A stretch of 12,314 bases of DNA from an uncultured Oscillospiraceae bacterium (GTDB taxonomy: Bacteria; Bacillota; Clostridia; Oscillospirales; Oscillospiraceae), in the NCBI GenBank assembly GCA_934623575.1, contig CAKTVL010000035.1:1-12314 (forward strand), written 5' to 3'. Both the position numbers and the translations under genes were made by a program. Positions within the stretch are counted from its first letter, which is position 1. Every line of letters starts with the position of its first letter. The notes below the pieces were generated by a model. It saw only the letters and a program-made list of their open reading frames with translations. It did no database searches and had not been told where the DNA came from. Below are positions 6,218 through 12,162 of the stretch, one piece after another.

Positions 6218-6403
6218 ATGGCTAAAAAGTCTATGATCCTGAAGCAGCAGGCGCCTGCGAAATTCTCCACCCGTAAGTACAACCGCTGCAAGCTGTGCGG
6301 CCGTCCCCACGCCTATCTGCGTGACTACGGTGTGTGCCGTATCTGCTTCCGCACGCTGGCGTACAAGGGCGAGATCCCCGGCGTCCGCAAGGCCTCCTGG
6401 TAA
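6218..6403 (+). CDS. rpsN: 30S ribosomal protein S14, zinc-binding short form
   Basis: S14 is a late-assembling protein of the small-subunit head. This is the short C+ form: 61 aa with C24-x-x-C27 and C40-x-x-C43, the zinc-binding pattern, unlike the ~100-aa zinc-free paralogue. The start [11 protein letters not shown] and the end [12 protein letters not shown] are canonical, so the gene is intact despite the unusual sequence that follows it. Many Bacillota keep a second, zinc-independent S14 elsewhere for zinc shortage; that cannot be judged here. A TTAGGAGGAG site precedes ATG 6218. The next gene does not begin for 281 nt. Confidence 0.97.
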
Positions 6404-6488
6404 TCTTTTTTCCTCATACTTCGTTGGCAAGGCTTGCCGTACACAAAGTACGGCTGCGCCATGCCGCCTCGTCTGAGAAAAAAATCTT
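6404..6488. repeat. Long imperfect palindrome after rpsN
   Basis: This segment folds on itself. The inner stem is perfect: GCCGTAC (6436-6442) with GTACGGC (6448-6454) around the loop ACAAA. Going outward, GGC (6431-6433) pairs with GCC (6458-6460), GGCA (6426-6429) with TGCC (6462-6465), CTCA (6413-6416) with TGAG (6474-6477), and the T run 6406-6411 with the A run 6478-6484. The left arm contains a further dyad, GGCAAGGCTTGCC (6426-6438). Because the T run is on the left and the A run on the right, it is not a normal intrinsic terminator on either strand. The layout resembles dispersed intergenic palindromes or miniature elements; no flanking target duplication was recognised. Confidence 0.65.
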
Positions 6489-6668
6489 CACCAGGAGCAG
6501 GCGGAGGAAATGCTCTCCGCCGAACCCATGTACCCAAGAGCCGCAAGGCTCCGGTAATACAGGATGGCGAAAGGTCGCTGGTAATTAAACACTGGGGTCA
6601 GCTCCGGCGAAACAAATTATCAGCGATACCTCGCTGCCTCAACAGGCTGCGGCCTGTAACTCTAAAAT
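6489..6668 (+). other. Hairpin-rich non-coding segment before rpsH, possible structured RNA
   Basis: No convincing gene is present. Five local hairpins can be drawn: GGCGGAG/CTCCGCC (6500-6521, 8-nt loop); GAGCC/GGCTC around the GNRA loop GCAA (6538-6551); GCGA/TCGC (6567-6578, 4-nt loop); CAGCGA/TCGCTG (6621-6636, 4-nt loop); and ACAGGC/GCCTGT around the UNCG-type loop TGCG (6642-6657). GAGCA (6495-6499) could instead pair with TGCTC (6511-6515), an alternative to the first hairpin. The segment uses triplets such as ATA, TTA, CTA and CGA that neighbouring genes avoid, so it is not a decayed copy of a neighbour. It may be a structured RNA, a control element for rpsH onward, or part of an inserted repeat. 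No known RNA family was recognised. Confidence 0.45.
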
Positions 6669-6684
6669 AGGAGGAAACATTAGT

Positions 6685-7083
6685 ATGCACATCACTGACC
6701 CTGTTGCCGATATGCTGACCCGTATCCGCAACGCCAACAACGCCAAGCACGAGACCGTCGACGTTCCTGCTTCCAACATGAAGAAGAGCATCGCTCAGAT
6801 CCTGCTGGATGAGGGCTACATCAAGTCCTTCCAGGTCATCGAGGACGGTACCCAGGGCGTTATCCGCATCACCCTGAAGTACAATGCCGGCAAGGAGAAG
6901 GTCATCTCCGGTCTGCGCCGCGTGTCCAAGCCCGGTCTGCGCGTCTATGTGGGCGCCGACGAGCTGCCCCGCGTGCTGCGTGGCCTCGGTATTGCTATCG
7001 TATCCACTTCCAAGGGCGTCATGACCGACAAGGCTGCTCGCGCAGCGCACGTCGGCGGCGAAGTCCTTGCGTTCGTATGGTAA
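6685..7083 (+). CDS. rpsH: 30S ribosomal protein S8
   Basis: S8 binds helix 21 of 16S rRNA and is central to assembly of the platform. In E. coli it is also the translational repressor of the spc operon, acting at an mRNA site that mimics its rRNA target. The 132-aa protein starts [20 protein letters not shown], and ends with the family signature, [20 protein letters not shown] then VLAFVW. AGGAGG (6669-6674) lies 10 nt before ATG. It is the only ribosomal gene in the window whose ribosome site is not within about 20 nt of the previous stop codon, because 281 nt of structured sequence separate it from rpsN. It cannot rely on simple coupling to rpsN translation (inference). Confidence 0.97.
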
Positions 7084-7098
7084 GGAGGTATTTGAACA

Positions 7099-7644
7099 AT
7101 GTCGAGAATTGGTAGAATGCCCATTACCGTCCCCGCCGGTGTGGAAGTCACCATCGCGGAGAACAACGTTGTTACCGTCAAGGGGCCCAAGGGTACTCTG
7201 ACCCAGGCTCTGCGTCCGGAGATGATCCTGGAGCAGGACGGCAGCACCATCCACGTCAAGCGTCCCTCCGACGACAAGCTGCACTGCGCTCTGCACGGCA
7301 TGACCCGCGCTCTGCTGCACAACATGGTCGTCGGCGTCAGCGAAGGCTTCAAGAAGGAGCTGGAGATCAACGGTGTCGGCTATCGTGCAGCCAAAGAGGG
7401 CAATGAGCTGGTCATGAACCTTGGCTACTCTCACCCTGTGAAGGTGGCGGAGATCGACGGCATCACCATCGATGTCCCCGGCCCCAACAAGGTCGTGATC
7501 TCCGGCCCCGACAAGCAGAAGGTCGGCCAGTTCGCGGCGGAAGTCCGCGAGAAGCGTCCTCCCGAGCCGTACAAGGGCAAGGGCATCAAGTATGTTGACG
7601 AAGTCATCCGCCGCAAGGTCGGTAAGACCGGCGCTAAGAAGTAA
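7099..7644 (+). CDS. rplF: 50S ribosomal protein L6
   Basis: L6 lies near the factor-binding site beside the sarcin-ricin loop and the stalk base. The 181-aa protein has the expected two related halves: [18 protein letters not shown] with [10 protein letters not shown] in the first, and [20 protein letters not shown] then HPV in the second. The family signature [20 protein letters not shown] is near the C terminus (about residues 154-173). TAAGGAGG overlaps the rpsH stop and the gap is 15 nt, so normal tight operon spacing resumes here after the break before rpsH. Confidence 0.97.
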
Positions 7645-8550: not shown

Positions 8551-8730
8551 ATGGCTAATCTGAAGATCCAGCTCGTAAAGAGCCTCAACGGGAGACTGGA
8601 GAAGCACATCGCTACCGCCAACTCCCTGGGCCTGCGTAAGATCGGTGATACCACCGTCCAGCCCGACAATGCCCAGACCCGCGGCAAGGTCGCCAAGATC
8701 GGCTACCTGCTGAAGGTCACTGAAGAATAA
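8551..8730 (+). CDS. rpmD: 50S ribosomal protein L30
   Basis: L30 is a small large-subunit protein of bacterial type that packs against domain II of 23S rRNA. Read directly from the sequence, the frame gives 59 aa: it starts [19 protein letters not shown], has [15 protein letters not shown] in the middle and ends GYLLKVTEE before TAA. Length matches the family (about 58-62 aa), as does the LGL-x-K-x-x-x-T-V-x-x-x-(N) helix-strand pattern. TAAGGAGGG overlaps the rpsE stop and the gap is 14 nt. The gene is short enough to be lost with a 60-codon length cut-off. Position between rpsE and rplO is as expected. Confidence 0.95.
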
Positions 8731-11880: not shown

Positions 11881-12162
11881 ATGGACATTGTAAAGGCGAA
11901 TATCGTAAGATCTACCGCAGGCAGGGATAAGGGAGCGCCCTTCTTCGTCCTGGAGACGGAGGGGGACTTCCTCCTGCTGGCGGACGGAAAGACGCGGCCC
12001 GTGGAGCGGCCCAAGCGCAAGCGGCGCAAGCACGCGGCGCTGCTCCGCGCCGACGGGGGCGTCGTTTCCCAGAGGATCAGAAGCAACGAATCAATCACAA
12101 ATAGTGAGCTTCGTAAAGCCATAGCCGCGATACGCGGCAGTGATCAAGACCAGGAGGGATAA
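11881..12162 (+). CDS. KOW-domain RNA-binding protein, L14e-like
   Basis: The 93-aa product has a KOW-type beta-barrel start: a strand (DIVKANIVRS), then the turn TAGRDKGAPFFVLE, then strands around FLLLADGKTRPVERPKRKRR. The AGRDKG turn and the basic R-P-K-R-K-R-R-K-H stretch (about residues 43-51) recall archaeal and eukaryotic L14e. A helical C-terminal part (ESITNSELRKAIAAIRG) follows. Similar small KOW proteins are common between map and infA in Clostridia, where they are annotated only as RNA-binding; the function is unknown. RNA or ribosome binding is inferred from fold and neighbours. It starts one base after the map stop with only a weak GGAGAAG site (11861-11867), so coupling to map is likely. 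The end is 3 nt before infA. Confidence 0.85.
   Translation: MDIVKANIVRSTAGRDKGAPFFVLETEGDFLLLADGKTRPVERPKRKRRKHAALLRADGGVVSQRIRSNESITNSELRKAIAAIRGSDQDQEG
12152..12157 (+). promoter_or_regulatory. Ribosome binding site supporting the TTG start of infA
   Basis: AGGAGG stands 8 nt before TTG 12166, an ideal distance. The next in-frame ATG (12181) would remove the conserved A-K-S-D start of the protein, so TTG is the better choice. Confidence 0.75.

Follow-up and report, generated by a model that had tools for sequence, protein, structure and literature searches.

A conserved RNA element with the core of an S8-binding site between rpsN and rpsH in Oscillospiraceae

Why does a tightly packed ribosomal protein operon contain one long gap? 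In the window, which here means the whole 12,314-nt stretch of DNA analysed, from an uncultured Oscillospiraceae bacterium, the rpsN gene (uS14, PF00253; 6218..6403, + strand) ends at position 6403 and the rpsH gene (uS8, identified by PF00410 and alignment with E. coli S8; 6685..7083, + strand) starts at 6685, leaving an intergenic gap of 281 nt. An earlier sequence-only reading had singled out this junction as the only widely spaced one, and the 19 other junctions computed range from -4 to 19 nt (a count that omits the rplP-to-rplN stretch and the final junction to infA). As it had also stated, the flanking genes are intact (Pfam E values of 3e-25 for S14 in rpsN and 5.5e-54 for S8 in rpsH) and the gap holds no convincing gene. 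Two large frames in or over the gap (6434-6670, + strand; 6598-7434, - strand) have no Pfam match, and within the 120 nt that precede rpsH, any given one of the three + frames is interrupted by a stop codon in 72-74 of the 82 sequences compared below. A protein-coding gap was rejected on these grounds. The gap folds with -112.5 kcal/mol, whereas its dinucleotide shuffles reach -81.4 +/- 5.2 kcal/mol (z = -6.0), none of 200 being as stable. No Rfam family matched in the window (the best sub-threshold hit had 14.5 bits versus 95.4 required), and a search for a match of phage origin found none. The only match labelled "plasmid" is to an 861-kb Vescimonas record, where it corresponds to the orthologous spc operon, and plasmid origin was likewise rejected. 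Downstream of the gene map, a 93-aa open frame without a Pfam match lies at 11881-12162 (+ strand).

Is the gap peculiar to one strain? I compared a first set of 82 sequences, comprising the 80 closest rpsH relatives among the matches listed (genome contigs), Vescimonas and the window. The rpsN-rpsH gap is 121-863 nt long in all of them. It is 288 nt in a CAG:176 scaffold (L001), where the first 94 nt are 84% identical to the window, and 306 nt in a Vescimonas fastidiosa record (L081; 72% identical). Since this separately assembled scaffold and the Vescimonas record also have the gap, an assembly artefact is unlikely. For contrast, the 30 best matches were taken at each of three levels, from 57 matched genomes for the order, 31 for the class, and 41 for the phylum, giving 88 distinct loci. 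Both genes could be placed in 87 of them, and four (L096, L097, L098, and L101) carry the element described below, their genomes being also in the family sample. The other 83, which stand for the wider group by their sampling rank and the absence of the element, have a median gap of 28 nt, and five of their gaps exceed 100 nt. Thus, the long gap with its RNA is a lineage trait rather than a strain insertion. The earlier statement that rpsN and rpsH are normally adjacent agrees with these 83 sampled loci but not with the Oscillospiraceae family studied here.

The gap has two main parts, a dispersed palindrome of about 94 nt and a conserved structured RNA at 6561-6674 directly before rpsH (all features are on the + strand). 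The palindromic repeat (6404..6497) directly follows the rpsN stop codon and lies outside the conserved RNA; its assignment comes from the fold of 6404-6490 (-31.2 kcal/mol) and from genome matches. It is followed by a local hairpin in a variable linker (6500..6521), which appears by eye to be unconserved among the relatives, and by the hairpin P0 (6531..6556) just before the conserved RNA, with similar hairpins visible in several relatives. The conserved RNA itself starts with P1 (6561..6639), an irregular hairpin, followed by the hairpin P2 (6642..6657). From the end of P2 it is 11 nt to the rpsH Shine-Dalgarno sequence AGGAGG (6669..6674, assigned by sequence and position) and 27 nt to the start codon. 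P3 (6660..6673) is a weak pairing of CUCU with GGAG of the Shine-Dalgarno sequence.

Is this structure under selection? The 82 sequences consist of 42 of the window type, 38 of the Flavonifractor type, and two exact duplicates in the core. Alignment A1 contains 39 of the 42 window-type sequences (L005 was omitted for a long insertion, and L045 and L051 as near-copies), and alignment A2 contains 33 of the 38 Flavonifractor-type sequences (L052, L053, L058, L067, and L073 were omitted for divergence or insertions). The two alignments share the fold, namely, P1 with its internal core, P2, the linker, and AGGAGG, and in both the linker is conserved and the spacing to the Shine-Dalgarno sequence is nearly constant. 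In A1, 15 of the 32 pairs show two-sided changes, and 97.2% of the cells are paired (86.8% after shuffling). Its covariation score is 0.356 versus 0.163 for the shuffles, none of 500 being as high. P1 accounts for 22 pairs, of which nine show two-sided changes and which are paired in 97.1% of the cells of the 39 sequences, and P2 for six (five with two-sided changes; 95.7%). P3 is paired in 100% of cells with a two-sided change in one of its four pairs, and it is absent from the predicted fold of the A2 group. In A2, 10 of the 20 pairs show two-sided changes and 96.5% of the cells are paired, with a covariation score of 0.322 versus 0.126 (0 of 500 shuffles reach it). When the partners were slid by 1-3 columns, pairing fell to 35-51% and the A1 score to 0.037-0.104, a comparison that favours the structure as drawn since it was taken from consensus folds with the core rewritten after helix 21 of 16S rRNA. 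Aligning the junction among relatives had been proposed as the check between insertion and functional RNA, and the conserved gap with its abundant compensating changes falls on the side of a functional RNA. In the gap of L005, about 200 nt are apparently inserted in the P2 loop with both P2 strands kept.

What might P1 bind? In all 72 aligned sequences (39 rows of A1 and 33 of A2), P1 contains AGGUC (6572..6576) and GAUACC (6625..6630); the columns of this core are fixed, whereas the neighbouring helices vary. A regular expression for the core matched 82 of 82 first-set gaps (13.6 expected from shuffles) and none of the 83 contrast loci. In my mapping, the strands correspond to residues 595-599 and 639-644 of helix 21, the primary S8 site of 16S rRNA, giving A595, G596-C644, G597-C643, U598-A640, C599-G639, U641, and A642. 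The S8-site residues found are G597-C643, U598-A640, C599-G639, A642, and an unpaired residue 595. The S8 protein encoded in the window keeps the STS motif and the tyrosine when aligned with E. coli S8. A 16S rRNA gene was found in the genomes of five of 15 relatives, and helix 21 was read in three, none of them the window's own species; it is AAGUC / GAAACU. The leader has the same strand order and equals these relatives at 8 of the 11 core positions, with A642 and G597-C643 kept. The exceptions are residue 641 (U, not A) and the compensated 596-644 pair (G-C, not A-U), and the leader resides in an mRNA, not in the ribosome. According to PMC4176348, the S8 site of helix 21 has a base triple (G597-C643)-U641, an invariant A642 touched by a serine of the S-T-S motif of S8, and a triple of residue 595 with the pair 596-644 (A-U in E. 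coli, C-G in T. thermophilus). Positions 641 and 596-644 are among those that vary between known S8 sites (PMC4176348).

A strict descriptor of the site (x-GUC-stem-GANAC-x'), composed after the motif had been seen, gave 63 matches in 24.3 kb of gap sequence, distributed over 62 of the 82 gaps (20 were missed), and two in 823 kb outside; the loci are related and so the matches are not independent. On the minus strand it gave eight matches, and the only + strand match of the window is at 6574. In this rRNA order, the descriptor had no match in the E. coli operon. A permuted descriptor without mismatch had none near E. coli rplE, and with one mismatch it paired GUC at +82 with GAAAC at -28 and missed the published partner strand at +6, which was located by its letters. 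As a positive control, the E. coli operator was therefore not recovered by these descriptors. For divergent members, a widened descriptor gave 11 matches in 7.0 kb of gap, six in 73.6 kb outside, and four on the minus strand, and these members were counted instead by regular expression with letter-shuffle controls.

How far does the element extend, and does it keep its place? The first set was retrieved via rpsH and was excluded from this assessment. I searched models R1 and R2 against 120 sampled genomes from the GTDB family to which Oscillibacter valericigenes (G012) belongs. At an E value of 0.01, R1 matched 86 genomes and R2 89. Each of the 86 R1 matches immediately precedes rpsH, one in each R1-positive genome. 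An S8 search found a full-length rpsH in 93 family genomes, in 88 of which the gene is immediately preceded by a match to R1 or R2. In the order sample, R2 matched 31 of 295 genomes (E value of 0.001), and eight of the nine order-level matches fetched precede rpsH. The element is consistently upstream of an r-protein gene in these samples, a placement that is not wholly independent evidence because both models contain the first 12 nt of rpsH. In the class sample, R1 matched four of 291 genomes. Several matches were judged to be due to chance: four weak R2 matches in the family away from rpsH (G406, G411, G424, and G450), the order-level R2 match G337 in a stretch without S8, and two of the four class-level R1 matches (20.7 and 21 bits) at loci without S8. 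One family genome, G516, has two S8 genes; the one on contig C41 carries the element and the one on contig C141 is 67% identical, which may indicate contamination or a second copy.

Twenty divergent family matches, chosen by hand from the lists, all lie before rpsH; 17 have the canonical core by regular expression (1.6 expected), two have GGCC..GGAACC, and one has neither. Among the eight order-level matches before rpsH, three are canonical (0.7 expected), three are variant, and two are neither. The variant cores, GGCC..GGAACC (L227, L228, and L239) and GGUU..AA[A/U]ACC (L234 and L236), exchange the pair 598-640 (U-A to C-G) or 599-639 (C-G to U-A) and leave 597-643 and A642 unchanged. Judged by sequence, such compensated cores are what would be expected for an S8 site. 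The five family genomes with a full-length rpsH and no model match (G408, G428, G445, G502, and G507) gave two canonical cores with a loose regular expression (0.9 expected), one variant, and two with neither, which is little better than chance. The core was absent by regular expression from L230, L233, L237, L207, and L208. In L207 and L208, which have no model match, a hairpin ACCGUC..GAUAGGU abuts the Shine-Dalgarno sequence before rpsH, possibly a minimal or degenerate S8-like site.

What is the palindrome in the first third of the gap? In the L001 genome, 6404-6497 has eight matches, counting the one that lies between its rpsN and rpsH, and matches were found in six of nine other genomes, most of which had been chosen because their gap seemed to hold the palindrome. 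Of the 15 copies viewed (L184-L198), eight lie 1-42 nt after the stop codon of a same-strand open frame of more than 100 codons; this measure skips short genes such as rpsN, and the remaining copies fail by it. The oriented palindromic repeat resembles a REP-type 3' element. It is a separate element that is not needed for the S8 RNA.

Does the gap have its own transcription signals? Promoter-like sites were found in 16 of 20 gaps of at least 400 nt (1.4 expected from letter shuffles), in six of 12 gaps of 300-399 nt (0.8 expected), in three of 15 gaps of 200-299 nt (0.3 expected), and in four of 35 gaps shorter than 200 nt (0.8 expected). In the long gaps these sites lie upstream of the S8 hairpin; thus, the element there would be a true 5' leader (5' UTR). 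The window and several short gaps have a weak promoter-like match that overlaps P2 and the linker, and the window has just this one. The suggestion that the gap may hold its own start signal is therefore apt for the long-gap relatives rather than for the window. A scan of 6350-6720 gave terminator-like sites on the minus strand only, and thus attenuation, which had been offered as another possibility, is not supported. Seen by eye, L056, L058, L060-L064, L068, L072, L073, L077, and other long gaps have a terminator-like hairpin after rpsN, mostly followed by a TTGCAA-N17-TATAAT-like site, splitting the spc operon at the rpsN-rpsH junction. Some long-gap relatives (e.g., L056, L062, and L077) have an extra hairpin, GGUCAAACCCGC..GCGGUUUUGAUA, ahead of the S8 element, which by eye resembles half of the S8 core (without C643). 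L107 and L113 (gaps of 519 and 492 nt) share a different leader with GUGAAAGGGUCACGGCGG..GAAGUACCG and no S8 core; it shows terminator-like and promoter-like stretches by eye and may be another RNA family.

The analysis shows the conserved structure, its place before rpsH, and the S8-site core. On these grounds, I consider, with a probability of roughly 85%, that 6561-6674 is a cis-acting mRNA element that would bind S8, with P1 imitating the core of helix 21, for the autoregulation of S8. The element would act as a sensor of spare S8 that turns down S8 and the genes behind it. While 16S rRNA is plentiful, S8 would go to the ribosome, and rpsH and the following genes would be translated. Excess S8 would bind P1 and fix the P1-P2 structure that ends shortly before the Shine-Dalgarno sequence. 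In the simplest reading, this clamp would hinder the loading of the 30S subunit at rpsH, and the expression of the downstream genes would then fall via translational coupling. Repression by an initiation block is the presumed outcome of S8 binding, and activation or mRNA processing in its place is possible. A switch of the Shine-Dalgarno sequence through P1 was rejected, having no effect in silico: its unpaired probability (mean of 39 sequences) is 0.31 in the free fold, 0.31 with P1 forced, and 0.27 with P1 forbidden, and rpsH is not unusual among the genes of the window. Thus, steric hindrance or S8-dependent decay would be the realistic routes, and since P1 formation leaves the Shine-Dalgarno sequence unhidden, the step from binding to repression is supposed rather than seen in the fold.

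That same null result leaves some room for a processing or stability element, in which S8 or an RNase acting at P1/P2 would split the spc mRNA and set differing half-lives. The promoter-like sites of many long-gap relatives and the retroregulation by S8 known in E. coli (PMC10931766) also speak for it, but the conserved linker and the near-constant distance to the Shine-Dalgarno sequence suggest an action on initiation, and I regard this alternative as rather unlikely. The RNA might also be a structured leader for another ligand, be it a different r-protein encoded in the operon or a factor from outside the ribosome, with a coincidental S8-like core. Other r-proteins of the operon could in principle regulate such a leader, and S8 binding here is argued from sequence; however, the nucleotides that never vary coincide with the S8 site, the variants obey its rules, and rpsH lies directly behind. 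A ligand other than S8 thus seems improbable.

The promoter counts of the longer gaps could be taken to mean that the gap is a promoter region of an independent rpsH unit, with the RNA structure being secondary. However, gaps shorter than 200 nt rarely have such a site, yet the core is present in every first-set gap, which makes this explanation more improbable still. That the whole gap is a functionless inserted mobile element is hardly credible. The dispersed palindrome speaks for it, but the rest is conserved in place across the family with covariation, and each R1-positive genome has a single match. Insertion is already contradicted for 6561-6674 and may apply to 6404-6497. Among the options named by the sequence-only reading, that of a control RNA is supported for 6561-6674 by its covariation, constant place, and S8-site core, that of an inserted element is confined to the first 94 nt or so, and that of attenuation finds no support.

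Is the putative S8-binding element just the E. coli-type spc operator at another place? Both share the proposed ligand, the operon, and the logic of the core. The E. coli operator at rplE uses residues A+80, A+81, and U+11 (PMC4176348), and the letters of MG1655 rplE are GAAACU at +6..+11 and AAGUC at +80..+84. In contrast, the RNA studied here is non-coding, precedes rpsH instead of lying at the start of rplE, has an additional P2 and linker, and belongs to a different lineage. AGGUC comes first and GAUACC second as in rRNA, whereas the E. coli strands are permuted (GAAACU, then AAGUC). The permuted descriptor has one match in the window, near 8646 and not at rplE. Because position and strand order differ, I did not file the element as an E. 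coli-type spc S8 operator. It resembles the r-leaders of PMC7247131 in that a conserved RNA with covariation precedes an r-protein gene, and some of those mimic rRNA (L20, eL15, S15, and S4). Neither uS8 nor rpsH occurs in the main text of PMC7247131. The literature searched, where a motif confined to a supplement could be missed, yielded no S8 leader described from outside Gammaproteobacteria. A 2024 review (PMC10931766) calls the regulation of spc in B. subtilis or other species unknown.

It is fairly probable that the element represents a new family of S8-responsive mRNAs, present in Oscillospiraceae and some related members of the order, which arose independently of the E. coli operator as a copy of helix 21 with the strands in their native order. 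With it, the spc operon would consist of an upstream part and one under S8 control, and the intercistronic operator would in several lineages have turned into the 5' leader of an rpsH transcription unit in its own right. If so, a large group of gut Firmicutes would have a concrete and testable S8 operator outside Gammaproteobacteria, and rRNA mimicry would have arisen convergently with a different strand topology. The relatives would then form a natural series from an intercistronic operator to a promoter-driven leader.
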